Source: an uncultured Parabacteroides sp. (lineage in GTDB: Bacteria; Bacteroidota; Bacteroidia; Bacteroidales; Tannerellaceae). From it: 64,000 bases of DNA. The stretch is from positions 38,165 through 102,164 of the forward strand of contig CAKVBA010000004.1 of NCBI GenBank assembly GCA_934725305.1, in the 5' to 3' direction. A program made the translations under genes and the position numbers. Shown one piece after another: positions 46,586-64,000 of the stretch; positions within the stretch are counted from its first letter, which is position 1, and every line of letters begins with the position of its first letter. The notes under the pieces are model-generated. The model saw only the letters and a program-made list of their open reading frames with translations. It made no database searches and was not told the DNA's origin.

Positions 46586-47526
46586 ATATGCAACATTTGT
46601 TTAGCCATTTCTACTGCTCTTTTCGTTGTTTCCGTCATTTCATCCACTTTTGATAAACGCTGAGGCGGTTGATAAGGATAAGGAAGGCCAACAATGCGTT
46701 TGGCTTCGCCACCTGACAATTCTTTCATGTCGAGATTGAAATTGTGATAACGCCACCAGCTAATAAAATTTTGGCTATATTCCTGTTGCGTTTGAATGGT
46801 GTGTTCGCGTTGAGTGAGCAGCAAAAAGTCATCAAAGGTTTGCATAGCCTCTTCGACATACTGCAAGATGGCCGAACCTTTGCCAGCAAACCGCACCAGT
46901 GTGGCTTGCCAATCTTCGTTTTCTATCAGTGCCTTTTTCCATGCTGCTTTTTCATTTCCAAAAAAATCGCTCGCGCGTTCTCTCTCTCTATTTTTTAAAT
47001 TCTCCTTTTCTTTACTCTCCTTTTCTTTACTCTCCTTTTCTTTCCTTTTCTTTTCTTTTCTTTGTGGGATTTCTTCCCGAGAAACGGGGGTTTCTGCCCG
47101 AGAAACGGGGGTTTCTGCCCGAGAAATGGGAGTTTCTGCCCGAGAAACTAAACATACATCTTCATTGATTGAATGATTTACTGATGATTTGTGCTTTGCC
47201 ATGATATAGCATTCCTGAATATATTGAGAGGTCAAAATCCGTTTTTGCCTCCAAAATTCAGCATGAAATACTTCCAGTTTTACCAGATAATCTATAATTT
47301 CTAACAACTTTTTTTCATCACAGGCGCACACTTCTGTTAAATCAAACAGATAATCATCTGTCACCTCAATAAAATATCCATTAGCAAATGTATCGCATAA
47401 AACAGTCATGTAAACAACTAAACCATCATTATCAAACTGACGCTTCAATCGGCGTGCAATTCTGCTATTCATGAAATTTACATCAAAGGGAAAATAATCC
47501 AACCCATTTTTTATTGGACGTGCCAT
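46582..47526 (-). CDS. DUF4373 (Lin1244/Lin1753-type) protein
   Basis: The 314-residue protein has the DUF4373 domain in its first 110 residues: GLDYFPFDVNFMNSRIARRL, DNDGLVVYMTVLCDTFANGY and YLVKLEVFHAEFWRQKRILT. Such domains occur at the start of phage replication-initiator-like proteins. A linker holds heptad repeats (SRAETPI, SRAETPV, SRAETPV) and a Lys/Glu-rich run. The C-terminal part has TQQEYSQNFISWWRYHNFN, resembling the DnaD-like tail of such proteins. It is the central gene of the accessory cluster. Confidence 0.75.
   Translation of the reverse strand: MARPIKNGLDYFPFDVNFMNSRIARRLKRQFDNDGLVVYMTVLCDTFANGYFIEVTDDYLFDLTEVCACDEKKLLEIIDYLVKLEVFHAEFWRQKRILTSQYIQECYIMAKHKSSVNHSINEDVCLVSRAETPISRAETPVSRAETPVSREEIPQRKEKKRKEKESKEKESKEKENLKNRERERASDFFGNEKAAWKKALIENEDWQATLVRFAGKGSAILQYVEEAMQTFDDFLLLTQREHTIQTQQEYSQNFISWWRYHNFNLDMKELSGGEAKRIVGLPYPYQPPQRLSKVDEMTETTKRAVEMAKQMLHI
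47076..47148. repeat. 21-bp tandem repeat inside the DUF4373 gene
   Basis: The unit CCCGAGAAACGGGGGTTTCT plus G is present three times plus a partial copy. Each unit is itself a hairpin (GAAAC...GTTTC), and 21 bp keeps the frame, encoding the SRAETPV heptads. Confidence 0.8.
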
Positions 47527-47564
47527 AATAGTATTAAATAATTAACAACTGACAATTTTTAAAA

Positions 47565-47885
47565 TCATAACATACACTTCACTGCTCTGACAATGAGCAT
47601 AATAGTCTTAACAGTAAGCAGTTCCGACGGAGTAGTGCGGATAAGGAGCCAGCCGCAGGCGGCCGCTTCGTTGTACTTTTCAAGATCACGCAGATAACCT
47701 TCCGGGCGGACGTGCCGACCGCCGTTCCAAACAGAGCCTTCTACTTCAATTGCAACGTGGGCAGAGGGAATGGCATAATCGAAACGCCATTCCCGGGCAG
47801 GGTGGAACTTATATTCAGCAACCACCCTTTGCCCTGTATATCTGTGTATTAGTGCGTCAAGCGGCGAATAGTTCATCATCTGCAT
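47565..47885 (-). CDS. Small PD-(D/E)XK-like nuclease, phage type
   Basis: The 106-residue protein reads EWRFDYAIPSAHVAIEVEGS, where Asp and the E-x-E pair are spaced as in PD-(D/E)XK or VRR-NUC nucleases, followed by NGGRHVRPEGYLRDLEKYNE and GWLLIRTTPSEL. The short length and order resemble Vsr- or DUF559-like endonucleases found in Bacteroides prophage genes. The catalytic lysine cannot be placed with certainty. It is the first gene of the minus-strand cluster and has the best promoter in the window. Confidence 0.7.
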   Translation of the reverse strand: MQMMNYSPLDALIHRYTGQRVVAEYKFHPAREWRFDYAIPSAHVAIEVEGSVWNGGRHVRPEGYLRDLEKYNEAAACGWLLIRTTPSELLTVKTIMLIVRAVKCML

Positions 47886-48359
47886 CTATCAACAATCTTA
47901 TTTGAGTTAAAACAACGTAAACTATAAGAATTTGGCCAATCTTTTACATCTCAAATGTACGGTTTTTATATTTATAAAACAAATTATATACTTTGAAATT
48001 CAAATGATTGACATTTTATATACAATTTTAAGCCTGTTTATCCGTAAGCTCACAAACAAACACAGACAAACATGGACGAAGAGCGACAGAAGTGGATTTT
48101 AGCTTAGGCCGAGGTTTTATATTTGTGCAGCGAACGGTCAAGTATGGTTGGGATAAAAATGGATAAATAGTGCAGAACAGAAGTTTAGAGAGGTTTTTCT
48201 TGATCTATATTAAGATTTTTTCAAAATATAACAGGTGGATTTGTCACAGATAAAAAAAGTTAAGCAAATATATATATAATCTCATTGGAGTCCCGGAATG
48301 AGGAGGATTCTGATTTTGCATGTTATGTCGTTTTTATTTACACACTAAACTTTTCAATT
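47886..48359. other. Divergent intergenic region
   Basis: This 474-bp AT-rich gap lies between the nuclease gene and the zinc-ribbon gene. Besides the promoter at 47952-47983 it holds an ACAAACAAACACAGACAAAC tract at about 48047-48070 that echoes the 10-bp units at 45450. No gene is seen; the frame extending upstream from 48360 has only a TTG start. Confidence 0.5.
47952..47983 (-). promoter_or_regulatory. Promoter of the accessory cluster
   Basis: On the minus strand, TTTG (47980-47983), 20 bp, then TACATTTG (47952-47959) is an exact Bacteroidetes promoter, about 65 bp before the nuclease-like gene. Confidence 0.72.
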
Positions 48360-50297
48360 ATGGATTATTTATTTATTGGAAATTTGGGTATTGGAGAACT
48401 GATAATTGGAGGTGCTATTTTAGTCGTTGGGCCTTTGCTCTTGGTTTTGCTTATTTGCGGAGCTTTTACGACTTTTCCGCCTGATCCTCAAACAACGGAC
48501 CGTTCGGAATGGGATCCTAAGGCTCATCAAATATTTTATGGGGTTATTTTTTATTCATTGGCAAATATTCTTGGGGCTATTGTGAGTATATTGGATAAAT
48601 GGAGCAGTCTCTTATATTACAGAAATCAGTTTATTTCGGCCTCATCACCGGAAGATATCATTAATATTTTGATGGGAGATACCCCGAGTTTTTTTAGCGG
48701 AACAACGGTTGCCAATTTCTTTGTTGTCATAGGACTTATATTGTATTTCATGGGATTGGAAGAGTTTATGAAAATACACAAAGACTTTGTGACTGTCAAT
48801 AAACTTCGGGATGTTCATACCGCGACAGTCTTTGGCATCGTCGCTGTTATTCTTGGCTATATTCCCGTTGCAGGGCCATTCTTCTCTTGGGTATTCAATC
48901 TTGTCATGTACTTTATGTTCGTATTTGCTTTTGGCTATTTGAGATACAGCCCGGTGTTTAATATCAAGGCCAGAGCCGGAGCCGGATTGCTTCGAACGGC
49001 AGCAATTATGTATATTCTCAGTATGTTCATTCCCTTTATCGGTGGTCTGTTCAGTCTTTTTGGCTTCCTGATGACACTGATAGGATGGGGACGCATTGCT
49101 AACGGTGGTCCTGTTGCATTCTTACATACTGCCACAAGCCAACCAAGTAATTATTCTCTATCTGCTGCTACTCCAGCGAAGGAAACACATGTAACACAAA
49201 CGCCAGCCGAGGTCAGCAGGGGTACTGTATATTGTTCGCACTGTGGAACGCAGTGCAAAGAGACTCAGCGATATTGTTCGCGGTGTGGCTTTGAATTGCC
49301 TTCTTATAAAAGGCAGGAAGAGCCTGTGCCGTCTTTTATAAGAGAGAGCCTGCCACAGGCCGTAGCAGAGCCTAAACCCGAAGTAAAGCCGGCTCCTGCG
49401 CCTGTTTCGGCTCCTGCGCCGACTCCGAAGCCCGAACCGGTGTCTCTGCCTGTTTCAAAATCTGTTTCCGAGCCAACGCCGAAGCCCGCTCCGATGCCGG
49501 TTCCGAAGCCTGTTCAGAAAGTTGCAGAGCCAGCATCTTCAACAACACGTGTGACATCTAAGAATAATACCAACACGATATATGGCATAGCCGTTGCCGT
49601 AATTGTGATTGTAGTCGTTATATTGGCTTATACATTTTGGTATAGACCTTATGCAATAGAGCGGGATGCGCCTCGCTTCTACACGTTCACCAACCTGAAT
49701 TTGCGCACTTCGCAAGATTCGGAATCGAAGACAAATATCCTTACCATGCTTCCTTATGGCACGGAGGTGATAGCGTATGAAAAAGATTTTTTGTGGGCGA
49801 AGGTGAAGGCAAACGGTGCAAAGGGATTTGTTTCATCCCGACATTTGATTAGCAAAATTCAGTTTGGCTTGTTGGATGGTGTTTGGGGAAATGAGGATGC
49901 AAAGAAATGTCTGGGCGCAACTCGATACCGTTTGGCTGTGCTCGATTATTTGCAGCGAAAAGGATATTCATCCGGAAGTCGGGGTTGGCAGATTTATGCG
50001 AATCCCTATGGAAGTCGGTTGAATACGGTGGTCTATCCTAAAATGTGTCTGCCTGAAAACGATTTTGAAGATTTGGTCTTTATCATTACAAACAATCTGG
50101 ATCATGAACGCAGGTTGGTTGTCTATCGGTTTGAAAACGAAACGGAAGAACCTGTGTTTGAAAAGGATGTAATCATTAGAGGCGATTTGAAAATCCGGAA
50201 GATAACAGGCGAGCGTGAGCCGTTTAGCAGTGTGATTGCTGTAACTGTTTCGTTTGGCAATGGCAATAATGCCTATTTTGATATAGATCTCAAATAG
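48360..50297 (+). CDS. Membrane protein with zinc ribbon, Pro-rich linker and SH3b domain
   Basis: The product is 645 residues from the ATG at 48360. Residues 1-245 hold about six hydrophobic helices (GGAILVVGPLLLVLLICG and others). A zinc ribbon follows (CSHC 292-295, CSRC 306-309), then a Pro/Lys/Ala-rich linker at 335-395 (KPAPAPVSAPAPTPKPEP). One more membrane helix lies at 407-427, with a bacterial SH3 domain at 440-498 (FTNLNLRTSQDSESKTNI; GFVSSRHLI). The C-terminal 150 residues are unrecognised. SH3b domains bind cell-wall peptides, so the tail probably faces the envelope. I know no named family with this full order. Confidence 0.6.
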   Translation: MDYLFIGNLGIGELIIGGAILVVGPLLLVLLICGAFTTFPPDPQTTDRSEWDPKAHQIFYGVIFYSLANILGAIVSILDKWSSLLYYRNQFISASSPEDIINILMGDTPSFFSGTTVANFFVVIGLILYFMGLEEFMKIHKDFVTVNKLRDVHTATVFGIVAVILGYIPVAGPFFSWVFNLVMYFMFVFAFGYLRYSPVFNIKARAGAGLLRTAAIMYILSMFIPFIGGLFSLFGFLMTLIGWGRIANGGPVAFLHTATSQPSNYSLSAATPAKETHVTQTPAEVSRGTVYCSHCGTQCKETQRYCSRCGFELPSYKRQEEPVPSFIRESLPQAVAEPKPEVKPAPAPVSAPAPTPKPEPVSLPVSKSVSEPTPKPAPMPVPKPVQKVAEPASSTTRVTSKNNTNTIYGIAVAVIVIVVVILAYTFWYRPYAIERDAPRFYTFTNLNLRTSQDSESKTNILTMLPYGTEVIAYEKDFLWAKVKANGAKGFVSSRHLISKIQFGLLDGVWGNEDAKKCLGATRYRLAVLDYLQRKGYSSGSRGWQIYANPYGSRLNTVVYPKMCLPENDFEDLVFIITNNLDHERRLVVYRFENETEEPVFEKDVIIRGDLKIRKITGEREPFSSVIAVTVSFGNGNNAYFDIDLK

Positions 50298-50315
50298 GAG
50301 AGTAGCAATTATGAT

Positions 50316-50344
50316 ACACCGTCCTTGCGTTGCGATGGCGGTGT
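50316..50344 (+). terminator. Possible terminator after the zinc-ribbon gene
   Basis: ACACCGTC pairs with GGCGGTGT around an 11-nt loop, 19 bp after the stop. No T-run follows. The remainder of the gap to 50662 shows no gene. Confidence 0.35.
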
Positions 50345-50662
50345 GTCAATGGTAAAGAGTATTTGTAAAGATCTGTATTCGAGTCAGTTTGCAATCCTCC
50401 GGAATGTGTCGCTATTGATACTGCTCTAAAGATAAGAAAAGTGAACTAATTTACAATGTTTTAACTGCTAAATAACGCGTTGGATTTCAGGAATAATAGT
50501 TGTTGGGTCTTTTCGGTTGAGCTCCGTCTTTTTAGTCATATCAGATTGATATATAGTTTATTTTACCAATGAATTGCTAAGAAACTATGATGTGGTAGGC
50601 GTGGGGCTTTTCGTTACGCATTGCAGACTTTTAGTTCCTGTTTATATTGCAGTGAGTAACTG

Positions 50663-50731
50663 CTATTTTGCGAAATAGAAAAAGTTTTTTGATTTTTTTG
50701 TTCACAAATCAATTATTTTTCACTAAACTTG
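50663..50731 (+). promoter_or_regulatory. Candidate promoter and operators of the CRISPR operon
   Basis: TTTG (50697-50700) and TAAACTTG (50724-50731, one mismatch) are 23 bp apart, 20 bp before the XRE gene. Two inverted repeats flank or overlap it: CTATTT-TGCG-AAATAG (50663-50678) and TTGATTT...AAATCAA (50689-50712). These are plausible operators for the XRE protein. Confidence 0.4.
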
Positions 50732-50750
50732 TAACCAAAACCAACAAGAT

Positions 50751-51752
50751 ATGGCTAATAATATATTACCGATCAGATTACGAGAAGCAAGAAACATGCA
50801 GAAACTCAGCATGGATAAGCTCATTGAACTTACCGACTTTGTTGTCACCAAACAGAGTCTTTCAAAATATGAGCGAGGCATTATGCGTCCTCATGCAAAC
50901 GTTTTATCTGCACTGGCAAAAGCATTGGATATCAGCGAAGACTATTTCCTTGGTGCCAATATCCATATAGATGTACCTATGCTTCGTGCTACATGTGATG
51001 GTGATTTGCAAGAAGATGAGCTAATTGCTTTAGAGTCAAAATTATCTTATTGGGCAGAACGTCTTCTGCTCAAAGAACGTGCAGCAGGAATCTCCATTGA
51101 ATTTATCAATCCTCTGGATAACTTTCAGGTTTCTTCCCTTGAGGATGCTATTCAAGCGGCAGATTTCCTTCGCCAGCACTGGCATTGCGGAGACGGACCT
51201 ATTGCAAGTGTGTTGCGTCTTTTTGAGCGTAAGGGAATCAGAATATTGGAAACAAATCTTCCCAAAGGCGTTTATGGTCTTAGCACATGGGCAGACAAGT
51301 ACCTGCCACTGATGATTTTAGATACACGTCGTTCCAAGACAACCGTGGAGCGTCTTCGCTTCACTGCAGCTCACGAACTTGGCCACCTGCTTCTATCTTT
51401 TCCTTCTGATTCAAGCCAGATGGAGGAGAAACTTTGCAACAAATTCGCAAGTTTCTTCCTCTTCCCCAAGTCTGCGTTTATCGAGGAAATGGGTGGTGAA
51501 CATCGTGATAAGCTTATGTTAGAAGAGTTGATAGACTTAAAGGAAGTGTATGGTGTATCCATCGCCGCACAAGTGCATGAAGCTTGGGACATCCGCATGA
51601 TTTCACGTGAGCACTACGATTGGTGGTACAGCGAAATGATATACTCCAACAGCATGGAAAAAGGTTGGGGTAACTACGCTTTTCCTGAGACGATTGGTCG
51701 GGAAAAGAGAGTAGAAGCAAGGATAAGTACAAAAGATAAAAAACAACAATAA
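50751..51752 (+). CDS. XRE helix-turn-helix + ImmA/IrrE-type metallopeptidase
   Basis: The 333-residue protein starts with an XRE DNA-binding domain at residues 7-65 (LREARNMQKLSMDKLI; KQSLSKYERGIMRPHANVL). A COG2856/ImmA-IrrE domain from about 140 carries the zinc motif HELGH at 208-212 (RFTAAHELGHLLLSF) and the third-ligand region EEKLCNKFASFFLFP. Such proteins sense a signal and cleave or bind a repressor, often controlling mobile-element or stress genes. The stop is only 2 bp before the cas6 ATG, so it is translated from the same mRNA as the CRISPR effector. Both halves look intact. It may autoregulate the cas operon; toxin-antitoxin use is possible, but no toxin is adjacent. Confidence 0.85.
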   Translation: MANNILPIRLREARNMQKLSMDKLIELTDFVVTKQSLSKYERGIMRPHANVLSALAKALDISEDYFLGANIHIDVPMLRATCDGDLQEDELIALESKLSYWAERLLLKERAAGISIEFINPLDNFQVSSLEDAIQAADFLRQHWHCGDGPIASVLRLFERKGIRILETNLPKGVYGLSTWADKYLPLMILDTRRSKTTVERLRFTAAHELGHLLLSFPSDSSQMEEKLCNKFASFFLFPKSAFIEEMGGEHRDKLMLEELIDLKEVYGVSIAAQVHEAWDIRMISREHYDWWYSEMIYSNSMEKGWGNYAFPETIGREKRVEARISTKDKKQQ

Positions 51753-51754
51753 AA

Positions 51755-52417
51755 ATGAGAATACATATTTCTACAACAAAGAATACCCGTTTAGTTCCTT
51801 TTGACTATCAGCAAAAGTTGGTTGGAACTATTCACAAATGGATAGGGAACAATTCTATTCATGATAGGATTTCACTATATTCTTTTTCTTGGCTAAAAGG
51901 AGGAGAAAAAGTATCGGAGGCTTTAAATTTTCCTGAAGGAGCAACAATGTTTCTTAGCTTTTATGATGATGAAACTATGAGAAAGGTCATAAAGTCTATT
52001 TTAGATGATCCTCAAATGTTTTGTGGCATGTTCGTAACAAACGTTACTATTGAAGACATTCCATCACTTGAAAGTCGAGAGCTGTTCTATTGCGCAAGTC
52101 CTATTTTTATCAAAAGAAAAATGGAAGATGGAGAAATTAAACAATATACCTATAACGATGAACAAACAAGTCTTCTTCTTAAAGAAACTCTACTAGCCAA
52201 GATGAGAGAAGCGGGATTGGAAGAAGACGACACTTTAGACATAAAGTTTGATACGTCTTATCAGAGAAAGAAATTCAAATTTGTACGCTATCGTGGTATT
52301 GGCAACAAAGCAAACCTATGCCCTGTCATCATAAAAGCCAAGCCGGAAACAAAACTGTTTGCTTGGAATGTTGGCATTGGTAACTGCACTGGTATCGGAT
52401 TTGGCGCAATTTATTAA
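51755..52417 (+). CDS. cas6: CRISPR repeat endoribonuclease Cas6
   Basis: The 220-residue RAMP protein cuts CRISPR precursor RNA at the base of each repeat. Two ferredoxin-like halves are visible. The C-terminal glycine-rich loop is clear (WNVGIGNCTGIGFGAIY), as is the LVGTIHKWIG segment in the N-terminal half. A histidine in the region IHISTTKN or IHKWIG may act as general base; the exact residue cannot be fixed. It is the first cas gene after the XRE protein and lies 18 bp ahead of cas5. Cleavage would leave the 8-nt tag ATTGAAAT on the crRNA 5' end. Confidence 0.85.
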   Translation: MRIHISTTKNTRLVPFDYQQKLVGTIHKWIGNNSIHDRISLYSFSWLKGGEKVSEALNFPEGATMFLSFYDDETMRKVIKSILDDPQMFCGMFVTNVTIEDIPSLESRELFYCASPIFIKRKMEDGEIKQYTYNDEQTSLLLKETLLAKMREAGLEEDDTLDIKFDTSYQRKKFKFVRYRGIGNKANLCPVIIKAKPETKLFAWNVGIGNCTGIGFGAIY

Positions 52418-52435
52418 TTATTAAAGGATTGGATT

Positions 52436-52990
52436 ATGTACGTTGTAATATATAAGGGACAGTTTGGTTTCATTAAGCCATGGACCGCTGTTCGTGATGG
52501 TGAAACATTCAGCCAACAATTTCTTACACCTTCAATAATTGAAGGCATTGAGAAAAAACTATTTCCTGAACTATTGAACGTCTCTGGAATTCACAAAATA
52601 CTAAGACACAAGCTAAAGTATGATTCAATGGATTCCCAACAAGAGGTGACACAGCCAAGAGGTTGGGAGTATAAAAATAGAACTTTCATTAGAAATCGTT
52701 CGGTGTTGAAGCGTTCTGTTCTATTGCATCCAGTTTTATACATTGCTTTTGAAAACGATGAAGATGCTATTATTGCCTCGAAGCAACATGTATGTGTATG
52801 CAGAAATGAAGATATACTCTTGCCGGAATCAGAAATCCATGTGATGGAAGAAGAACAATTCAATCAATTACCTGGTTTCGAATTACGCTTTGGCAATTCT
52901 GAGCAATCTTTCCTCGTTGGCTACAATCGTTTTAACGACAATCAGCCGATGTTGGGCTGGATAGAGTTTAATGGTCAATCTTTACTTTAA
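52436..52990 (+). CDS. cas5: Cas5 (PGING/I-B branch)
   Basis: The 184-residue RAMP-fold protein has the opening strand MYVVIYKGQFGFIKPWTAVR and the segment TFSQQFLTPSIIEGIEKKLF. A basic helix region (HKILRHKLKYDS) precedes YKNRTFIRNRSVLKRSVLL. This matches the Cas5p type described for Porphyromonas gingivalis systems, by position and pattern. Cas5 caps the 5' handle of the crRNA in Cascade. The start context is weak, as in most genes here. It is the second cas gene, 12 bp before cas3. Confidence 0.75.
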   Translation: MYVVIYKGQFGFIKPWTAVRDGETFSQQFLTPSIIEGIEKKLFPELLNVSGIHKILRHKLKYDSMDSQQEVTQPRGWEYKNRTFIRNRSVLKRSVLLHPVLYIAFENDEDAIIASKQHVCVCRNEDILLPESEIHVMEEEQFNQLPGFELRFGNSEQSFLVGYNRFNDNQPMLGWIEFNGQSLL

Positions 52991-53002
52991 TGATGTAATT
53001 AT

Positions 53003-55144
53003 ATGAATATTCATCAAGAAATATTAGCTAAAAGCGAGCAGAATGGACATATTTGTTTGTATCAGCATCTAAAGAATGTTGCTGATACAGCTCGTGTTAT
53101 GGCTAAGCATCTAGGATTTGATGAACAGATTGCAGTAGAAGGAGCTTTGTTGCATGACATCGGAAAAGCAAGTCCAGTGTTCCAGCAATCGCTGATTTCT
53201 CCAAGCAAAAAGAAGCCTGGTTTTGTTTTTCGCCATGAAATAGCTTCCTTGTTCTTTCTGTCGTTGGTATGTCAGGAGCATAGAGATGCAGTGATAGATA
53301 TGATTGTAGCTCATCATAAATCTATGTATAGAGATGTTCGGGATTTGGGCATTTTAGATTTAGATGATACATCAGATTGTTTCAAGGAACATTCAAAGTT
53401 ATTCCCGGAATGGAGTTATATAGCCATTGATATTCTTGAAAGCCTTGGTATGGAAACTCATGAGATTTCTTTGAAAAAGGCAAAAGAAAATTATGAATAT
53501 GTCATAGACTATTGTGATGGCAGAAAAAAGGGTTGTTCTGAATGGAGAGGGTTGTTGATGGCGGCAGATCACATGGCTTCTGCTATGGAGACTGCATGTG
53601 AAATGCCGCTTGATAAACTCTTCATCAAACCAAATTTGTCTTTTTACAATAGGCAAAGTGAACTCTATCCTTTGTCCATGATTTCTTCGGATAGTAAGAA
53701 GATGCATACGTTGGTAACAGCTCCAACTGGAGCAGGAAAAACAGATTTTTTGTTGAGACGTTGTTGTGGAAGAGTTTTCTATACACTGCCTTTTCAAGCA
53801 TCAATTAACGCTATGTATGATAGAATAAAGAGTGATTTGAGTGATACTAATGCTCAAGTTCATCTTCTTCATGCAGCCTCTAATCTGAAAATGAAAGACG
53901 GCAAGATAGAGGAAAGCATCATGCAGCGTCATGTTGGTGCATCTGTAAAGGTTCTTACTCCTCACCAGATGGCCTCAGTAGTTTTTGGTATCAAAGGATA
54001 TGAGGCCATGGCTATGGATTTAAGAGGTTGTGATGTGATTCTCGATGAGATACACACCTATTCTGATGTTATGCAGTCTATAGTTCTGCGCATTATTGAG
54101 ATTCTTGTTGCGTTGGATTGTAGAGTTCATATTGGTACGGCAACAATGCCTACAGTATTGTATCAGAAGATACTTCATCTATTGGGTGGAGCTGATGCTG
54201 TTTATGAGGTTAAGTTAGATTCTCAGATGCTTCAATCATTCAACCGGCATCAAATCTACAAGCTTGAAGATAAAAAAGAATCTTATGATGTGATAGCTTC
54301 AGCAATCAAAAGTAATTCTAAAATTCTCATAGTATGTAATCAAGTAAAAAGAGCACAGGAACTATATGAATCTATTGAGGATTTATATCCGGAAGTGAAA
54401 AAGATGCTTGTGCATAGCAGATTCAAACGAAGCGACAGAGCAAGATTGGAAACAGAGTTGCGTGAAGACTTCAATCAATTAGAAAACGTTCCATGTATCG
54501 TAGTTTCCACTCAAGTAGTAGAAGTCAGTCTTGATATCAGCTTTGATGTAATGATTACTGAATGTGCCCCAATTGATGCTCTTACCCAGCGTTTTGGACG
54601 AATTAATCGCAAACGTACAAGAGATACCATTGGACACTACAAGCCGATATATGTCATAGCACCCTCTGAAGATGAAAAAGAAGCTCTTCCTTACAGTAAA
54701 GAAGTTCTGAAAAAAACTTTCAGGGTATTGCCAGATAATGGCGATATTATGGAAGAAAACCGCGTTCAAGAAATGATAGATAAGGTGTATCCTAAGATTG
54801 ACTTCCAAAATATAGATTTTACCGGTGTGGCATTCTTGGAAGGAAAATGGGTGTTAAAGGCACTTTGTCATCATCCTAAATCTGTGTTGTTGGAAACGCT
54901 TGACATCAATTCTGCTGTTTGTATTACAGAAGATGATAAAGATAGATACTTATATGCCAATGGATTGGAAAGAATTGAAATGGAAATACCGGTAAGCTAT
55001 CATTCCATTGCACATAGAAATCTTGATCAACTCAATAAGGGATCGCGTCCTTTCGTCATTCCGAACAAAGGATATGATGAAGAGAAGGGATTGTTGCCCG
55101 ATTTGTGTAAAATAGAATATTATCAATCGTTTGAAATACTATAG
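53003..55144 (+). CDS. cas3: CRISPR helicase-nuclease Cas3
   Basis: The 713-residue protein fuses an HD nuclease and an SF2 helicase. HD residues: ALLHDIGKASPVF (H51, D52), FRHEIASLF, and IVAHHKSMY. Helicase motifs: APTGAGKT (I, about 240-247), DEIH (II, 347-350), IGTATMP (III), VVSTQVVEVSLDISF (V) and QRFGRINR (VI). All are intact. It is recruited by Cascade to unwind and degrade DNA. It lies between cas5 and cas8, and its stop is 3 bp before the cas8 ATG. Confidence 0.96.
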   Translation: MNIHQEILAKSEQNGHICLYQHLKNVADTARVMAKHLGFDEQIAVEGALLHDIGKASPVFQQSLISPSKKKPGFVFRHEIASLFFLSLVCQEHRDAVIDMIVAHHKSMYRDVRDLGILDLDDTSDCFKEHSKLFPEWSYIAIDILESLGMETHEISLKKAKENYEYVIDYCDGRKKGCSEWRGLLMAADHMASAMETACEMPLDKLFIKPNLSFYNRQSELYPLSMISSDSKKMHTLVTAPTGAGKTDFLLRRCCGRVFYTLPFQASINAMYDRIKSDLSDTNAQVHLLHAASNLKMKDGKIEESIMQRHVGASVKVLTPHQMASVVFGIKGYEAMAMDLRGCDVILDEIHTYSDVMQSIVLRIIEILVALDCRVHIGTATMPTVLYQKILHLLGGADAVYEVKLDSQMLQSFNRHQIYKLEDKKESYDVIASAIKSNSKILIVCNQVKRAQELYESIEDLYPEVKKMLVHSRFKRSDRARLETELREDFNQLENVPCIVVSTQVVEVSLDISFDVMITECAPIDALTQRFGRINRKRTRDTIGHYKPIYVIAPSEDEKEALPYSKEVLKKTFRVLPDNGDIMEENRVQEMIDKVYPKIDFQNIDFTGVAFLEGKWVLKALCHHPKSVLLETLDINSAVCITEDDKDRYLYANGLERIEMEIPVSYHSIAHRNLDQLNKGSRPFVIPNKGYDEEKGLLPDLCKIEYYQSFEIL

Positions 55145-55147
55145 AAT

Positions 55148-56449
55148 ATGATAACATCAAATATAGGAAAGATATTGATAGATGCTTACAATGAAGAATA
55201 TGGCACCAGCTATGATGCCCGAACTTTCTTCTTGGAGCAGTTCTATCCTTTGTTTTTTGATCAAAACAAGTATATGATGACTGCTGGCAATTCGCCTTTG
55301 GAAAATCCTAAACTAAGTTGGGATGATATGATTAACGGGAAAAAACCCTACGAAACACCCGAGCAGAGAAAAAGTCGTTTTGACAAATTGGTTGATAAAA
55401 TTGAAGAAAGCGATGCAGATGCCAGCATTGCACGTGGCTATCCATCTTTGGATGTGGCTGCAACTACGTCAGGTCAAGTAACTGATTTAAAGATATCAAA
55501 TAGTAAGGAGGATATTTATACTTCTTGGATTGGAGATGCTCTTGGCGTCGGTGTGCAGGGAGGTCTCTCGATACTCTTTAGTAAAAAAGAGATACTTCTT
55601 GATATTTATAAGGGGTGGAAACTATATCGCAAGAGTCTCAATGAAACGTCTATGCTTAAGGGAAACCAAATAAACACATGGAATGGGCAATGGCTTTCAC
55701 ATTATTATGATAGTAGAGAATATGATGACTCTATGCCTTTGGCAGGATACAATCCTTATAATACGAGCAAGGACGGAATAATTAGTCTTGATACTCAGAC
55801 TTGGACTAAGATACTTATTGGTATTTCAAGGAAATACAAAAACGTTCAAATTCTTGGTTACATATATAGCATTGGACAAACTAATACAACTATTGGTTTC
55901 ATTCCATTTGACTTGACACAGATACGTCGCCCTATTCATCTTTATGAAAAGTTGTTTGGAATAAGTAACGGTCGAAACGCAGAGTCTTTATGGGGAACTG
56001 CTGTCGGATTCAAAACTGTTTGTACGCAAGGTGTTATTGGTATTAAATCTATGGAGCCAAAGGGTCTTAGAGATTATATCTATAAAGGAAAACAACCCAA
56101 GGCTCCTAAAAGCGAGGAGGAAACAATTAATTTTAATGTATATAAAATCTGGATGTTAGCCATGTTGAATAATGATGAATTATGGGATAAATCCCAAGAA
56201 TTGGCAGTGTTATTGAACAATGCCTCAAGTGATAATGATAAGTCAATTAGTACTAAACGTAAAAATTTGGTTGAAACAATGCTCAATGCAGTCAATAAGA
56301 AACAATTCATTGCAGCTGCTGCAGAAGTTGTTTCATTCATTGGTGAGAAAGAAGAGTTTAAAGGAATCGTAAAAGAGATTCATAGTATGCCTACAGATAA
56401 TGTTCCATACTTCTTAACACTTTTGCGTTTCCAGTATAAGACATTATAA
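55148..56449 (+). CDS. cas8: Cas8-type large Cascade subunit (Csp2-like)
   Basis: The 433-residue protein sits in the slot of the Cascade large subunit, between cas3 and cas7. Its sequence carries few known motifs: IGKILIDAYNEEYGTSYDA, a SWIGDALGVGVQGGLSILFS segment, and ILGYIYSIGQTNTTIGFIPF. The gene order and general shape fit the Csp2/Cas8 proteins of the P. gingivalis-type I-B system. The role is PAM recognition and start of R-loop formation. The subfamily call is from position and recollection. Confidence 0.7.
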   Translation: MITSNIGKILIDAYNEEYGTSYDARTFFLEQFYPLFFDQNKYMMTAGNSPLENPKLSWDDMINGKKPYETPEQRKSRFDKLVDKIEESDADASIARGYPSLDVAATTSGQVTDLKISNSKEDIYTSWIGDALGVGVQGGLSILFSKKEILLDIYKGWKLYRKSLNETSMLKGNQINTWNGQWLSHYYDSREYDDSMPLAGYNPYNTSKDGIISLDTQTWTKILIGISRKYKNVQILGYIYSIGQTNTTIGFIPFDLTQIRRPIHLYEKLFGISNGRNAESLWGTAVGFKTVCTQGVIGIKSMEPKGLRDYIYKGKQPKAPKSEEETINFNVYKIWMLAMLNNDELWDKSQELAVLLNNASSDNDKSISTKRKNLVETMLNAVNKKQFIAAAAEVVSFIGEKEEFKGIVKEIHSMPTDNVPYFLTLLRFQYKTL

Positions 56450-56471
56450 TAACAATTTAAGATACAAAATT

Positions 56472-57539
56472 ATGAAAGAGAATTCTTTTATTTATTTGCG
56501 CGGTCTTAAGCATGCTGCGTTTACTGTATTCTGCGTTGAAGATGGTCAGAAATCTTATTATGACCCACAATTCAATGTACGAGCACCATACTCAAGTGGT
56601 CAACAAATAAAGCGTTCTATCATGGATCGGCTTAACGACGTTTTAGGTGTACAACCTTCTCCTACAGAATTCTTTTTTGATATAGATAAGAAGGGTGCGC
56701 TCAAAGAAGGAGAGGTTCTTTCCTCTTGCGATCCACACTATATCGACCAACTTTTAGGAGGTTGGATGAGAACCCCCAAAGGAGGTAAGGAAAAGGCTGT
56801 TAAGCGTAGAAGCCCATTTAGTATTTCTGCAATGACGCCACTTCATCCCCTCTTGGCATCAGTTCCTAAAGAGAATATTTCGTTTGACCGTTCCGACAAG
56901 CCTAATGTACATAAAGTTGTAGTAAGAGATGCAAGTGGAAATATATTGACAGACGAACAAGTAAACAATTTCTTGGAAGGAAACGATAGAAGTCTTTATC
57001 GTAAATGGATACCAGATAATAGTCGTGCCACAGGTCTCTTTGTCTATGATGTAGCTATAGATTTACGACGTTTATTCTGTGTTTCTACAAATCAGCTGGA
57101 ACCAGAGGTAACATCAGAGATGGTAGAGAAGTTGAAAGAAGATGGATGGAAGGTAATCACTACTTCTTTTGGTGAGTGCTTGTTGATGCCGAAAGAACAG
57201 CGTGAGCAGATTATTCCAGCTATAGCCGATGCTCTGATTGATTGGCATATTACATCCAATCAGGCGAGAACATTTAGCTTGATGGAGACACTTGCTATTG
57301 CGATTAGCGACAATGCTGATACTTTAGCTGCTGCTATTCGTGCCAAACTCATTGATGATAACGAGTCTAAACCTAAGGCAAAACCTATCATTGACGAAAA
57401 TGCCGGTGCAAAAACTTTCATTACTCTCCCTTGTGCAAGTTATGTGGTTACGGAGACGGAAAGTGCAGATGCCTTGACCTTAGCAAAACAAGAGTTGATA
57501 GAAAGAATGATGGCTTTTGATTACGAGAATCAAATATAG
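56472..57539 (+). CDS. cas7: Cas7-type backbone subunit (Csp1-like)
   Basis: The 355-residue RRM-type protein forms the filament along the crRNA. FIYLRGLKHAAFTVF opens the first strand; NVRAPYSSGQQIKRSIMDRL is a conserved Cas7 block; GLFVYDVAIDLRRLFCV and LMETLAIAISDN are later core segments. Its place after cas8 matches the Csp1/Cas7 of the P. gingivalis I-B type. It closes the effector half of the operon and is followed by a hairpin and then the adaptation genes. Confidence 0.78.
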   Translation: MKENSFIYLRGLKHAAFTVFCVEDGQKSYYDPQFNVRAPYSSGQQIKRSIMDRLNDVLGVQPSPTEFFFDIDKKGALKEGEVLSSCDPHYIDQLLGGWMRTPKGGKEKAVKRRSPFSISAMTPLHPLLASVPKENISFDRSDKPNVHKVVVRDASGNILTDEQVNNFLEGNDRSLYRKWIPDNSRATGLFVYDVAIDLRRLFCVSTNQLEPEVTSEMVEKLKEDGWKVITTSFGECLLMPKEQREQIIPAIADALIDWHITSNQARTFSLMETLAIAISDNADTLAAAIRAKLIDDNESKPKAKPIIDENAGAKTFITLPCASYVVTETESADALTLAKQELIERMMAFDYENQI

Positions 57540-57551
57540 AAAATAAACTAC

Positions 57552-57580
57552 GAGGCTCCTGATTATCCACTGGGAGCCTC
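57552..57580 (+). other. Intercistronic hairpin between cas7 and cas4
   Basis: GAGGCTCC and GGAGCCTC pair perfectly around a 13-nt loop in the 56-bp gap. No T-run follows, so mRNA stabilisation or cleavage seems likelier than full termination. Confidence 0.55.
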
Positions 57581-57595
57581 AATATACAATCTCTT

Positions 57596-58114
57596 ATGAT
57601 AATAACCGGCATTCATTTCAACTATTACCAGCTTTGCCGTCGCAAACTATGGCTGTTTGCCAATGGCATCAACATGGAGCAAGAGTCTGACTTGGTCTAT
57701 GAAGGAAAGTTGGTGCATGAATCAAGCTATCCTCAGCGGACGGCAAGATACGAGGAAGTGGAGATCGACGGCATCAAAGTAGATTACTATGACGCCAAGA
57801 GCAAGGTAATCCACGAAATAAAGAAATCCAACAAGGTGGAAAAGGCTCATGAATGGCAACTTAAATATTATATGTTTGTTTTCGAACAGCATGGCATCTC
57901 GGGTGTAAAAGGTATCTTGGAATATCCTCTTTTGCGTAAGACTCAAGAAGTGATTCTAACAGATGTAGATAGAGAAGAAATTCGGGCTATCTCGGAAGAT
58001 ATCACAAAAATCATCTCACAAGATACATGCCCACAGATAGTTAAGAAAGGGATCTGTAAGAATTGCAGTTACTTCGATTTTTGCTATATTAATGAGTTGG
58101 AGGAAGAAGAATGA
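57596..58114 (+). CDS. cas4: Cas4 exonuclease
   Basis: The 172-residue PD-(D/E)XK nuclease has a [4Fe-4S] cluster. The first cysteine is in FNYYQLCRRKLWLF and the last three are in CKNCSYFDFC; KVIHEIKKSNKVEKAHEWQL carries the active-site E-x-K and Q motif. It trims new spacers and checks the PAM during acquisition. The stop overlaps cas1 by 4 bp (ATGA), so the two are coupled. Confidence 0.92.
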   Translation: MIITGIHFNYYQLCRRKLWLFANGINMEQESDLVYEGKLVHESSYPQRTARYEEVEIDGIKVDYYDAKSKVIHEIKKSNKVEKAHEWQLKYYMFVFEQHGISGVKGILEYPLLRKTQEVILTDVDREEIRAISEDITKIISQDTCPQIVKKGICKNCSYFDFCYINELEEEE

Positions 58115-59127
58115 AAAGAAGTTTCTATCTGTTTAATCCAGGCATTATGGAGCGTAAGGACAACACGTTGAAGTTTACGCCTGTGGTCGTGAATGAAGAC
58201 AATACGGAAGTCAAACAGCCGCCTCGATATATTCCTATTGAAGATGTGACAGAATTGTATGCTTTTGGGAGCCTTCGAACGAATAGTGCTTTGTTCAATT
58301 TCCTGGGGCAAAAAGATATACCTGTTCACTTTTTCGATTATTACGAGAATTATACAGGAAGCTTTATGCCAAGGGAAAGTCTTCTGTCAGGCAAGGCTTT
58401 GTTGGCACAGACATCTGCACACCTGAACAAAAAGAAACGAATGGAGCTGGCTCGAAAATTTATCCAAGGTGCTACATGGAATATAGTCATGAATCTCAAC
58501 TACTATAACCGTAGAGGGAAGGACTTGCAAGACATCATCAATGCAATCAAGAGATTAAGTGATACTTTAGCAGATGCCAAAGCCGTGGATGAAATTATGG
58601 GAATAGAAGGAAATATCCGACAGGTATATTATGCAGCTTTCGATATTATACTCGATGATTTCAATATGGGCTCGAGAACTAAGCAACCACCCGAAAACGA
58701 AGTGAATGCCCTAATATCTTTCGGCAATATGATGTGTTATGCAGAAACGCTTCGAGCTATTCATCAAACCCAACTCAATCCAACGATAAGTTTTCTTCAC
58801 GCTCCCGGTGAAAGAAGGTATTCTTTATGTCTTGACATCTCTGAGATATTTAAGCCCATTATCGTAGATAGAGTTATCTTCAAGGTTCTAAATAAGCATG
58901 CATTAAGCAGTAGTCACTTTGACAAGAAACTTAGCAAATGTCTTTTGAATGAAAAGGGCAAAAAGATATTTGTGAAAGCCATGGAAGAGCGATATAACGA
59001 AACATTCCGCCATCGCGTTTTAGGCCGTAACGTAAGCTACAAACATCTTATAAAGCTGGAATGCTACAAGTTGCTGAAAGATATCTTGGGAATAGAAGAA
59101 TACAAACCGTTTAAAATGTATTGGTGA
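58111..59127 (+). CDS. cas1: Cas1 integrase (type I-B)
   Basis: The 338-residue metal-dependent integrase inserts spacers. It starts SFYLFNPGIMERKDNTLKF, with the conserved AFGSLRTNSALFNFLGQKDI and HFFDYYENYTGSFMPRESL. Catalytic residues sit in IEGNIRQVYYAAFD (Glu), FLHAPGERRYSLCLDISEIF (His) and that last block (Asp). All are present. It overlaps cas4 by 4 bp and abuts cas2 with a 1-bp gap. Confidence 0.96.
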   Translation: MKRSFYLFNPGIMERKDNTLKFTPVVVNEDNTEVKQPPRYIPIEDVTELYAFGSLRTNSALFNFLGQKDIPVHFFDYYENYTGSFMPRESLLSGKALLAQTSAHLNKKKRMELARKFIQGATWNIVMNLNYYNRRGKDLQDIINAIKRLSDTLADAKAVDEIMGIEGNIRQVYYAAFDIILDDFNMGSRTKQPPENEVNALISFGNMMCYAETLRAIHQTQLNPTISFLHAPGERRYSLCLDISEIFKPIIVDRVIFKVLNKHALSSSHFDKKLSKCLLNEKGKKIFVKAMEERYNETFRHRVLGRNVSYKHLIKLECYKLLKDILGIEEYKPFKMYW

Positions 59128-59128
59128 T

Positions 59129-59392
59129 ATGTATGCAATTGTTGTTTATGATGTGGGTGAGAAGCGTGTCGGTAAAATGCTGAAACTGTGCCGTCAATAT
59201 TTGTGTTGGATACAAAATTCTGTATTTGAAGGAGAGATTTCAGACGCAAAACTTAGGGAGCTGAAGCTGAAAATAAAAGGAATAATCGAGCCGTCTGAAG
59301 ACAGCGTAATTCTTTTTACCAACAAAATAGGCTATAATATGAACAAGCAAGTACTTGGAAAAGAGAGAATGTCAACCGACAATTTCTTGTAA
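59129..59392 (+). CDS. cas2: Cas2
   Basis: The 87-residue ferredoxin-fold partner of Cas1 reads MYAIVVYDVGEKRVGKMLKL, with the conserved Asp in the first strand, then LCWIQNSVFEGEIS and DSVILFTNKIGY. It forms the Cas1-Cas2 acquisition complex. It is the last cas gene, ending 215 bp before the first repeat. Confidence 0.96.
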   Translation: MYAIVVYDVGEKRVGKMLKLCRQYLCWIQNSVFEGEISDAKLRELKLKIKGIIEPSEDSVILFTNKIGYNMNKQVLGKERMSTDNFL

Positions 59393-59607
59393 TAAAAGTT
59401 GTCGATGTAAGTTTTCCATACAATAAATACCCCTTCATGGGTAATGTTTAGCTCTTTGACATGTTGTAACGCCAATAAATATAGGGGTTGTCGAAGAACG
59501 CACCAAAATATATAATTACCCATCGACATTTTTTTGGAGAAAAAGATTAACTTTGTACACATAAATCCTATTGTAGATAAGAATATTACATTTTCTAAAA
59601 CAATGGG
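59393..59607 (+). promoter_or_regulatory. CRISPR leader
   Basis: This AT-rich 215-bp leader joins cas2 to repeat 1. It holds TGTCGATG (59400-59407) and ATGGGTAAT (59437-59445), with their joined reverse complement ATTACCCATCGACA at 59515-59528. CAATAAATA is repeated directly at 59421 and 59473. TAACTTTG at 59548-59555 is a perfect -7 box, so array transcription would start near 59562. Confidence 0.75.
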
Positions 59608-61548
59608 GTTCTAATTGTACCTTTATGGAATTGAAATTCCGCAAAACTCAGTATAAAGTCCTGTCTCCGGCTCGTTCTAATTGTACCTTTATGGAATTGA
59701 AATTGCAATATGCTCTCACCGACGGTCGGAGTAGAAGAAGTTCTAATTGTACCTTTATGGAATTGAAATATACAAGGAGTCACAAGAGAGAGAACTGATA
59801 GAGGCAGGTTCTAATTGTACCTTTATGGAATTGAAATTTGAGCAGATGAAGCGGATCAGCGCCGAAGGCGGTGTTCTAATTGTACCTTTATGGAATTGAA
59901 ATGATAATCTTTCCACAAAGTACGAAGCGGAACTTTATAGTTCTAATTGTACCTTTATGGAATTGAAATTTTACTGTAAGAGCTGGAGAAACGAAAGCTA
60001 TTGACGTTCTAATTGTACCTTTATGGAATTGAAATAAGAAGAAATTGTTTGATTTATCATTGGTATATATGTTCTAATTGTACCTTTATGGAATTGAAAT
60101 GTAGTTTATATCTGTTAAGCTGTTAGCAAGCGTTTGGTTCTAATTGTACCTTTATGGAATTGAAATCTCGTTGCTTCTGCTATCTGATCGAGCGTCCAGT
60201 GTTCTAATTGTACCTTTATGGAATTGAAATACCACGACAGCGCACGGCCTAATTTCAGCTTTGCGTTGTTCTAATTGTACCTTTATGGAATTGAAATGTA
60301 TAAACTCGCCCGTTCCGTCCATCGATTTAGACAAGTTCTAATTGTACCTTTATGGAATTGAAATATCTGCCTTTATTGCAGGAAGAGAAGAGAAGGCAGC
60401 GTTCTAATTGTACCTTTATGGAATTGAAATTTTCGTAGGTGATGAATGTCTTGAATAGAAACGAGTTCTAATTGTACCTTTATGGAATTGAAATGAGAGT
60501 TGGAGGCCCTGATTTTATCTTTATAGGATTGGTTCTAATTGTACCTTTATGGAATTGAAATTGGGTTATTTAGGACTCAGTTACGAAATTTTTTGATGGT
60601 TCTAATTGTACCTTTATGGAATTGAAATTCTGCTTCTTCTCCGTCCGCTTCAACTTCTTCCTCGTTCTAATTGTACCTTTATGGAATTGAAATAAGGAAT
60701 TTCTAAAATAAAGGAATTTGCAGCGGAGAGTTCTAATTGTACCTTTATGGAATTGAAATTCGAATAGTAACCGTTTGATTCCGTGAATACAAGTTCGGTT
60801 CTAATTGTACCTTTATGGAATTGAAATTCAACAGGTTGGTGTTGTTGCCGTCCTGGATCTGGTTCTAATTGTACCTTTATGGAATTGAAATGCCGTTTGT
60901 TTGCCACATCCAGCGCCTCTTGGCCGTTCTAATTGTACCTTTATGGAATTGAAATTGCCTTCGTGTGTGATGGTTAGGCTGTTTAATCCCCGTTCTAATT
61001 GTACCTTTATGGAATTGAAATTTGGATTTTTGCGGTTACGTTTTCTATAGAAACGAGGTTCTAATTGTACCTTTATGGAATTGAAATTTAAAGATTCAAC
61101 AGAATAATTCAATATCTTAAAATCGTTCTAATTGTACCTTTATGGAATTGAAATCCTGTCAGTTGCACTAATATTATCAAGTAGGGGATGGTTCTAATTG
61201 TACCTTTATGGAATTGAAATATCTGACGATCCGCTCTATCTCCTCATGCGCCTCGGCGTTCTAATTGTACCTTTATGGAATTGAAATGACGAAGCGGGCA
61301 AACCCCGCGAAGATCGAGCAAGTTCTAATTGTACCTTTATGGAATTGAAATTCCGTAACAGCCAACCCCGTAGAGCTGCGTATCGATGTTCTAATTGTAC
61401 CTTTATGGAATTGAAATTTGGCTCTATCGTGGATCAGCAGCTCAAACAAAACGTTCTAATTGTACCTTTATGGAATTGAAATTGATGCGGGCAACGCCTG
61501 AGGCAGCCTGCCCCATGCGTTCTAATTGTACCTTTATGGAATTGAAAT

Positions 61549-61909
61549 GTTAGAACGGCATTAAGACGATTCAAAAGTGTTGAGTTCTAATTGTACCTTT
61601 ATGGAATTGAAATTTGTGAATGTGTTCAAACTTCTTTCGATAGAGGTAGTTCTAATTGTACCTTTATGGAATTGAAATGGAGAATATTGATAGCCTTCAC
61701 ACATTGATAGACAAGTTCTAATTGTACCTTTATGGAATTGAAATGACAAAGCGTAGACTACATGGTGAACTCTATCGTGTTCTAATTGTACCTTTATGGA
61801 ATTGAAATTGATTGTCGGAATGTCGGAGATCAGGCGCGTGATGGTTCTAATTGTACCTTTATGGAATTGAAATGCCAAAACGGCATTAAGACGATTCAAA
61901 AGTGTTGAA
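61549..61909 (+). repeat. Pair of near-identical spacers (30th and 35th)
   Basis: Spacer 30 (61549-61583) and spacer 35 (61874-61909) share 30 consecutive bases starting at position 6 of each. They differ only at positions 2, 3 and 5 and by one extra A at the end of the older copy. Four unrelated spacers lie between. Confidence 0.92.
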
Positions 61910-62436
61910 GTTCTAATTGTACCTTTATGGAATTGAAATACAAGATCCGGCAGATACCTTCGCAGGAATATGAGGTGTTCTAATTGTACCTTTATGGAAT
62001 TGAAATGCATATCAAAACCTCCTTATAAATATATAGTTGTCTGGTTCTAATTGTACCTTTATGGAATTGAAATTGTGTCAAAGAGCACCGCCTTTTTCAT
62101 GTCCGGGGTTCTAATTGTACCTTTATGGAATTGAAATAAGGACGGTGCTTGGGTGGAATCGCAGACAGGCAAGTTCTAATTGTACCTTTATGGAATTGAA
62201 ATATAGCAGGCCTGGCGCGGATATGTTTTACAACATGTAGTTCTAATTGTACCTTTATGGAATTGAAATCTCTGACGAAGGCGAACGAAAAATACGAAGA
62301 GCAGAGTTCTAATTGTACCTTTATGGAATTGAAATTCCTTTCAACCTGCTGTTTATTCAAAGAGATACGAGGTTCTAATTGTACCTTTATGGAATTGAAA
62401 TTCTACAAAGAAGTACATGTCCTCGCCAACCGCCGC

Positions 62437-62696
62437 GTTCTAATTGTACCTTTATGGAATTGAAATCGCAGTTGCAAGCCGTGTTGCACGGCAGGCATGA
62501 TGGTTCTAATTGTACCTTTATGGAATTGAAATCCTTCATGTGCGTGCCGGCTATGGCAAGCTGAAAGTTCTAATTGTACCTTTATGGAATTGAAATCGCA
62601 GTTGCAAGCCGTGTTGCACGGCAGGCATGATGGTTCTAATTGTACCTTTATGGAATTGAAATCCTTCATGTGCGTGCCGGCTATGGCAAGCTGAAA
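62437..62696 (+). repeat. 130-bp tandem duplication of two spacer units
   Basis: Two repeat-spacer pairs at 62437-62566 are repeated exactly at 62567-62696. Spacers beginning CGCAGTTGCAAGCC and CCTTCATGTGCGTG both occur twice. Confidence 0.95.
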
Positions 62697-63379
62697 GTTC
62701 TAATTGTACCTTTATGGAATTGAAATTTAATTTCAAACTGCTCTCTCGGCATAACTCACGGTGTTCTAATTGTACCTTTATGGAATTGAAATTAGCCGTC
62801 CTGGATAGATTTGTTTAGGTCGGCTAATGGTTCTAATTGTACCTTTATGGAATTGAAATGATTGTGTAAATATCCAGAAAGCGAAGCGCCAGCTCGTTCT
62901 AATTGTACCTTTATGGAATTGAAATAAATCTCTTTAATCCGCTTACGGATCTCTTTATCGTTCTAATTGTACCTTTATGGAATTGAAATTACACGCCTGA
63001 AATCGTGAAGTCGTCAGCAGGGAGTTCTAATTGTACCTTTATGGAATTGAAATCTCAGAGTCCCATTTCTCGGCCACTTGCGTCAAGCCGTTCTAATTGT
63101 ACCTTTATGGAATTGAAATTTCCTCTTACCCCCCCCTATTGACAGATAGTAGTGTGTTCTAATTGTACCTTTATGGAATTGAAATAGATTTGATCACTAT
63201 TCAAGGTAAAATGTTAAAAGTTCTAATTGTACCTTTATGGAATTGAAATGATCGTTCTGCTCGCGGTGTGCCTTAAAGGCAGCAAGTTCTAATTGTACCT
63301 TTATGGAATTGAAATAGTTGTAATGGCCGCGCACCATTTCGGGCGTGGTGTTCTAATTGTACCTTTATGGAATTGAAAT

Positions 63380-63937: not shown

Positions 63938-64000
63938 ATTAATTTGTTATATGACTCATTTTGTGACTGATTCTGAAGTTGTGTAATCCACAAGCAATAA

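Follow-up and report, generated by a model that had tools for sequence, protein, structure and literature searches.

We analysed a window of 64,000 nucleotides (nt) from an uncultured Parabacteroides sp. (contig CAKVBA010000004.1, positions 38,165 to 102,164), in which a type I-B CRISPR (clustered regularly interspaced short palindromic repeats)-Cas operon is preceded by a regulator gene. The gene (50751..51752; on the + strand, as are all window features below unless stated otherwise) codes for a protein of 333 amino acids (aa) with an XRE helix-turn-helix (HTH) domain and an M78 (ImmA/IrrE) metallopeptidase domain. It is probable that this fused repressor-protease, a relative of RmrA, has been turned into a CRISPR-Cas controller with proteolytic release and swapped among CRISPR types. 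In the mechanism that we propose, the XRE domain would bind an inverted repeat at 50699-50737, cover the promoter and repress its own gene together with the co-transcribed cas genes. A signal, by analogy single-stranded DNA (ssDNA) or another infection signal, would activate the M78 domain, the repressor would be cleaved within the chain or between dimer partners, and cas expression would rise. The lineage would have left toxin-antitoxin service once, mostly losing a C-terminal module, and the regulator would then have been passed with its promoter among I-B, I-C, II and V-A cas operons. What can be read from the sequences is the gene, its operon, its clade, the exchange of partners, a conserved metal site and a conserved operator. 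To our knowledge, CRISPR-Cas induction during infection is understood for few systems. One regulator clade with one operator and four CRISPR types, including Cas9 and Cas12a, offers a ready test set in which natural loci without the regulator serve as controls, and it would be a tangible example of a CRISPR controller derived from a toxin-antitoxin part.

The domain assignment of the regulator is clear. HTH_3 covers residues 10-66 (E 3.4e-11, above the Pfam cut-off) and Peptidase_M78 (PF06114) residues 159-273 (E 2.1e-8, 34.4 bits as compared to the Pfam cut-off of 22). The metal-site motif HELGH at residues 208-212 (51372..51386) is intact, and E226 (51426-51428) is, as we presume from the family motif, the probable third metal ligand. 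RmrA is the closest named family, with 14 PADLOC RmrA models matching (best E 3.9e-39 over residues 7-293), and the solved structures closest to the AlphaFold model are the CapP and PprI/IrrE peptidases. The spr1629 family repressor/antitoxin model NF052239 reaches 101 bits, below its curated cut-off of 335 bits, and Pfam gives no WYL match at E≤0.001. A scan of a collection of genome contigs for the regulator revealed a sole match, a distant homologue (L001, 29%). The regulator stop codon ends at 51752 and the cas6 ATG begins at 51755, leaving a gap of 2 nt, so that cas6 can hardly escape the regulator transcript; this supports a gene placed for the cas mRNA. An earlier note on this DNA had described an XRE and HEXXH regulator directly before cas6, and the Pfam domains, the HELGH motif and the 2-nt gap all confirm it.

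Homologues of the regulator at E≤1e-30 are present in 22 of 399 genomes of one family and in 21 of 295 genomes of an order-wide sample (24 loci). All 46 contexts were read, with key neighbours named by Pfam, NCBIfam and PADLOC. Ten of the 22 homologues in the family sample lead a cas operon, eight of them directly before a cas gene and two with one small gene between, and judging from these contexts the link to cas goes beyond chance. Type I-C operons, all with Cas5d and Csd1, are led by L093, L094 and L106 (cas3 split in two in the last), type V-A (Cas12a) operons by L095, L096, L100 and L162, and another type I-B operon with a different Cas8b by L097. The type II (Cas9) operons are those with the intervening gene, a Bro-N gene at L098 and an HNH gene at L099; L101 has the same HNH gene followed by the contig end. 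In a separate count Cas12a is above cut-off in 25 of the 399 genomes, and in 6 of these a regulator stands directly before it with a gap of 2-58 nt; four are among the ten cas-linked regulators and two had been missed at E≤1e-30. All cas-linked genomes from the regulator search lie in one sampled family of Bacteroidota. The remaining 9 family and 24 order-wide loci have no match to the window cas proteins, a check that is blind to Cas9 and Cas12a and for which 6 of the 33 loci have less than 1.3 kb after the regulator. Twenty-nine of the 33 have a member of a single PIN-like family as next gene. The label is weak, as 7 of 10 members tested match PADLOC PDC-S70 (E 2e-8 to 9e-4), the best Pfam PIN match (E 3.9e-4) is under the cut-offs and the PIN motif was recognised by eye. 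The exceptions are unknown genes at L107 (a marginal Csx23 match, E 0.0027) and L109, an efflux pump gene on the other strand at L140 and a BT4734/PrimPol-like gene at L160.

A maximum-likelihood tree of 50 proteins, the root of which is not fixed, splits into 17 and 33 proteins with branch support of 100/100. L168 and L190 were added to this tree for their position next to Cas12a and L270 for its similarity; counts free of this bias are given by the 399- and 295-genome samples. An earlier tree of 47 rows had the same split, 14 versus 33. The clade of 17 consists of 14 proteins encoded before cas genes, L101, and two orphans (L103 and L161). Its cas operons are of types I-B, I-C, V-A and II, and these are mixed within the clade: supported branches force at least six label changes for the Cas12a-linked rows and at least two each for I-C, I-B and II. 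The window protein is nearest to the type I-C regulators and 65% identical to L093. The simplest reading of these sequences is a single capture from toxin-antitoxin service, then swapping among cas types; a capture in the opposite direction is compatible with the tree alone because the root is not fixed. Homologue contexts and tree together led us to reject a random neighbour.

The HExxH motif and E226 are kept in 49 of 49 aligned homologues (16/16 in the cas clade and 33/33 of the others), as expected of a working metal site. This bears on the alternative that survives best, in which the regulator is an autorepressor of the cas operon and its M78 domain, instead of acting as a protease in vivo, senses a ligand or the metal or redox state. 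It shares with our proposal the autorepressor role, which is the plain reading and well supported by sequence. The conserved metal site argues against the rest of it, as do the top structure matches, CapP and PprI/IrrE, which are described as proteases in the literature text available to us, and we think this alternative unlikely, although it deserves to be taken seriously. Concerning the parts of our own proposal, DNA binding and repression by the regulator can be predicted with high confidence. Proteolytic release, proposed because ImmA-ImmR, PprI-DdrO and CapP-CapH work in this way, has our moderate confidence. Induction of cas by stress or infection is a reasonable idea by analogy, because CapP and PprI, the peptidases of known structure nearest to the regulator's, are proteases that cut a repressor when activated by ssDNA.

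The C-terminal part of the protein differs between the two groups. A conserved module (...EIISxSKAAxLL...) forms the end of the toxin-linked proteins; its pattern is found in 29 of 33 of these and in 1 of 16 cas-clade proteins (L097), with remnants visible by eye in L098 and perhaps L100. The tail after W292 has a median length of 63 residues in toxin-linked proteins versus 40 in the cas clade. It may be that this module binds the toxin.

Transcription of the regulator seems to be separated from the gene upstream (48285-50297). Just 3' of that gene lies a stable hairpin (50308..50353; fold −23.3 kcal/mol, z −3.81), as stable as which none of 200 shuffles were. No T run follows it and it is not among the calls of the terminator scan. 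It is probably a transcript end that separates the upstream gene from the regulator, and its position behind the upstream gene points to a separate transcription unit that begins with the regulator. The only terminator-like site in 50200-52500 is at 50649-50663, just before the operator, and the count of such sites is not above that in shuffles.

The putative operator-promoter of the regulator is the inverted repeat TGTTCACA-N23-TGTAACCA at 50699..50737, with a matrix score of 16.8 bits. A promoter is predicted under it (hexamers TTCACA-17-TAAACT, 50701-50729), the count of promoter-like sites overall being not above shuffles. The Bacteroides promoter consensus is TAnnTTTG. Before most homologues the consensus GGTTKACA - 21 to 24 nt - TGTMAACC can be read, its halves lying on the −33/−35 and −7 promoter regions, and cas-linked and toxin-linked groups alike have such an inverted repeat across the promoter upstream of the gene. 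Among the homologue upstreams, 10 of the 12 cas-linked ones and 25 of the 34 others match at least 13 of 16 consensus positions; among the controls this holds for 6 of the 236 upstreams that belong to other genes at these loci and for 1 of the 27 cas6 upstreams without the regulator. These counts are partly circular, as all loci had contributed to the consensus, which was derived by eye, and start codons were set by rule (by hand for L097); L145, having no upstream sequence, was left out. A fairer test used a matrix trained on 25 loci without cas genes, two of which (L103 and L161) belong to the cas clade, and applied to the 12 cas-linked upstreams. Eleven of the 12 scored above all of 100 shuffles each; for the window site the shuffles have a mean of −3.7, a standard deviation of 4.0 and a maximum of 6.9. 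In MT838366.1 (L270), outside the matrix training, TGTTGACA...TGTCAACA is seen by eye at the same place, and the regulator there ends 8 nt before a gene with a best match to Cas3c. Taken from these sequences, promoter, operator and regulator appear to move together. The suggestion that palindromes at 50660-50731 could be the operator holds for the conserved inverted repeat at the right-hand edge of that interval; the stronger palindrome, however, is the hairpin behind the upstream gene, which was also scored as an inverted repeat. A second operator elsewhere in the window was rejected, as neither strand has a site with at least 13 of 16 positions (own site 12).

Several observations weigh against a role as CRISPR-Cas controller. 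The operator of the window is degenerate: its 12 of 16 consensus positions are reached by 149 of 2000 shuffles anywhere and by 25 of 3000 at the right distance. The operator of L101 is weak, as 2 of 100 shuffles reach its matrix score. L103 and L161 have no cas neighbour (downstream read 5.6 kb versus 1.2 kb to the end of the stretch), and Cas1 was not found in the genomes of L103, L161 and L101, whose completeness is uncertain. The AlphaFold model has a mean predicted local distance difference test (pLDDT) score of 77, with a tail of low confidence. The regulator lacks the GAF-like domain on which the ssDNA activation of PprI depends, and with it a recognisable sensor: after the helix at 286-297 there are 36 residues (pLDDT below 50 at 299-325, another helix at 318-332), too few for a domain of about 100 residues. 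C229 is missing in 2 of 16 clade members, meaning that there is no general cysteine-based switch.

A further objection comes from loci with the same Cas8. Window Cas8 was searched for in 395 genomes of the phylum and 399 of one family, and 23 and 12 of them matched, with 2 shared; the weak match G149 (E 4.3e-4) was dropped and 32 loci were read. None of the 32 has the regulator at E≤1e-3 in the open reading frames (ORFs) of the fetched stretches, several of which are cut by contig ends, a count that leaves out Cas8 relatives at 84-87% identity on unread contigs. In the family sample no genome is among both the 12 with Cas8 and the 22 with the regulator. Gene order is cas6-cas5-cas3-cas8-cas7 in all loci with a recognised cas6, and the adaptation genes vary; one Cas8 relative, at 85%, is named Segatella hominis. 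cas6 was not recognised in 5 of the 32 loci (L056, L064 and L070 at a contig edge, L042 and L049 not at an edge), that of L062 was lost to ORF overlap, and 27 sister loci could be scored for the operator. At L053 and L054 a 321-aa gene that looks HTH-like by eye precedes cas6 by 95 nt (oriented coordinates 5.4-6.4 kb) and is another candidate controller. The earlier note had named the usual absence of the gene from relatives with the same cas genes as grounds for giving up its interpretation, and taken literally such absence is what we found. The type I-B system works without the regulator, and we reject the regulator as a specific partner of this operon. The absence does not decide the question, because what travels is the pair of regulator and promoter and not this Cas8. 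The clade of the regulator is attached to cas operons far beyond chance. Probably the type I-B operon here acquired a regulator that its sampled relatives do not have; that this took place after divergence from them we suggest with moderate confidence. The earlier interpretation, argued from one locus, was right in kind and is partly supported; what bears it out is that the clade as a whole is attached to several CRISPR types and that the operator is shared.

The same observations bear on the view that the regulator is a neutral neighbour, a left-over antitoxin gene brought before cas operons by shared toxin-antitoxin and defence islands and regulating only itself. Many cas operons lack it, including all same-Cas8 loci; 19 of the 25 Cas12a genomes show no regulator (several upstreams being cut short), and two clade members are without a cas neighbour. 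Against this, the gene is first, on the same strand and at gaps from a few to 63 nt before four cas types, its fully supported clade has mostly lost the toxin-type module, and the 2-nt gap behind the regulator's promoter puts cas6 on its transcript. We consider a neutral neighbour improbable. Still less credible is an antitoxin that protects from an unlinked toxin or from one carried by phages, or that renders the cas locus addictive, with regulation secondary: homology to RmrA and to proteins before PIN-like genes would agree with it, but the 2 nt before cas6 leave no room for a toxin gene in the window, and 15 of 16 clade members have no match to the pattern of the toxin-linked module, whose toxin binding is our assumption. 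Returning to the CRISPR-Cas controller with proteolytic release, a more detailed version can be put forward tentatively, and we would rather doubt than assert it: a RosmerTA-type phage-sensing antitoxin may have been captured once as a general CRISPR-Cas controller, so that an infection signal frees cas instead of a toxin through self-cleavage of a LexA-like fused repressor-metallopeptidase, with the promoter-regulator cassette traded between class 1 and class 2.

Other genes were seen at the places occupied by the regulator. WYL-domain regulators stand 42-162 nt before Cas12a at L169, L170, L172 and L177, and at L182 one stands before an HNH gene and Cas12a; at L167 a RhuM protein is encoded 15 nt before Cas12a. 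The slot before Cas12a looks like a docking place for exchangeable controllers. The small HNH protein (196-209 aa, HNH_5; L099:4944-5573, L101:8222-8851, L182:5437-6027) sits between regulator and Cas9 or between WYL protein and Cas12a, and for the L099 copy there are weak matches to PtuB and IscB-like proteins. Bro-N genes are found at L098:7404-7841 between regulator and cas9, and at L093:2117-3028 inside the I-C operon between cas3 and cas5. The BT4734/PrimPol-like gene (L160:5281-5910) lies 166 nt after a regulator homologue outside the cas clade. MT838366.1 is filed as 'Bacteriophage sp.' (unverified, human faeces) but looks bacterial. A phage-borne regulator was considered and rejected: 26 phage records match, the 58.5% match being MT838366.1 with its regulator and Cas3c gene, and the other 19 of the best 20 of the 26 are at most 30.2% identical. 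On viral contigs 74 loci matched, and the 20 inspected by eye (L196-L216 without L199) have no cas gene and several have PIN-like genes. Plasmid origin was likewise rejected, with no near DNA match and at most 32.3% identity in the best 20 of 305 protein-level records.

The operon led by the regulator has the order cas6-cas5-cas3-cas8b-cas7-cas4-cas1-cas2 (51755-59392) and is followed by an array with a 30-nt repeat. It comprises cas6 (51755..52417; PF01881, TIGR01877), cas5 (Cas5b, 52436..52990; PADLOC Cas5, 293 bits), cas3 (53003..55144; TIGR01587, 233 bits), cas8b (55148..56449; PADLOC Cas8b, 589 bits), cas7 (Cas7b, 56472..57539; PADLOC Cas7b, 598 bits), cas4 (57596..58114; PF01930, 182 bits), cas1 of type I-B (58111..59127; TIGR03641, 441 bits, cut-off 304) and cas2 (59129..59392; PF09827). 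Pfam and NCBIfam have no match to cas5 and cas8b. Cas8b, Cas7b, Cas5b, Cas3, Cas6, Cas1/2/4 and an array, all found here, make it type I-B. The array has the repeat GTTCTAATTGTACCTTTATGGAATTGAAAT at a spacing of about 64-68 nt and extends from 59608 to at least 63379 by the copies listed, with 22 further copies besides. At 62437-62696 two repeat-spacer units are duplicated in tandem, giving two adjoining 130-nt stretches of identical sequence. Rfam at gathering score gives no RNA element in 47000-64000. An ORF at 204-944 on the − strand resembles a WYL-type regulator by eye.

Comparison with known systems places the regulator between toxin-antitoxin and immune control (papers are cited here for the parts of their text available to us). 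RosmerTA RmrA (NetFlax node D25) likewise joins XRE HTH and ImmA-type peptidase in one chain; D25 proteins often have an N-terminal HTH, and the node is also tied to PIN-like domains (PMC10440598). In RosmerTA a toxin gene (RmrT or PIN-like) adjoins, while the window regulator stands 2 nt from cas6, and most cas-clade proteins no longer have the C-terminal module. By its sequence the window regulator is an RmrA homologue and not a RosmerTA system, because the next gene is cas6 and no toxin gene is adjacent. Fusions of Xre and COG2856 encoded in operons together with a PIN or RelE toxin (Makarova 2009, PMC2701414) have the architecture and toxin partners of the regulator lineage; in the authors' reply the toxin-antitoxin link to CRISPR loci is not particularly strong, with some in the vicinity. 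In the available text a review of toxin-antitoxin/CRISPR links does not mention Xre or COG2856 (PMC12737573), and CRISPR-neighbour surveys have HTH and toxin-antitoxin genes near cas without naming an XRE-M78 gene (PMC6967390, PMC10910872). A literature search among the best-ranked papers, with most subscription papers outside it, gave no report of an XRE-M78 gene leading cas operons. WYL-domain regulators are operon-linked repressors too, one of which, Sll7009, represses a type I-D locus (PMC9122601); 5 of our 25 genomes with Cas12a have one before that gene, but WYL proteins belong to an unrelated protein family without a peptidase.

PprI/IrrE-DdrO of Deinococcus and ImmA-ImmR of ICEBs1 share the M78 fold and HExxH motif with the regulator, and in both repressor cleavage is the derepression switch (PMC10904395, PMC10440598). 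Protease and repressor are separate proteins there and fused in the window, and PprI has the GAF-like domain that the window regulator lacks. The closest working analogue, judged by likeness, is CapH+CapP, with an XRE repressor and an HExxH M78 peptidase upstream of an immune operon. Profiles of this pair match the regulator far more weakly than RmrA (PADLOC capP E 8.5e-14, capH E 1.9e-7), and they are two genes, in contrast to the single 333-aa chain. CapP is an ssDNA-activated protease that cuts the repressor of the adjacent immune operon (PMC13373217, PMC10904395). For CapW/BrxR and CapH+CapP together BREX, Pycsar, CBASS, DISARM and Bub are named (PMC13373217), as compared to CRISPR-Cas for the window regulator. 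The idea of a controller of adjacent pathways (CapW, CapH+CapP, CapK+CapS) would in this way be extended to CRISPR-Cas by a single-chain repressor-protease.

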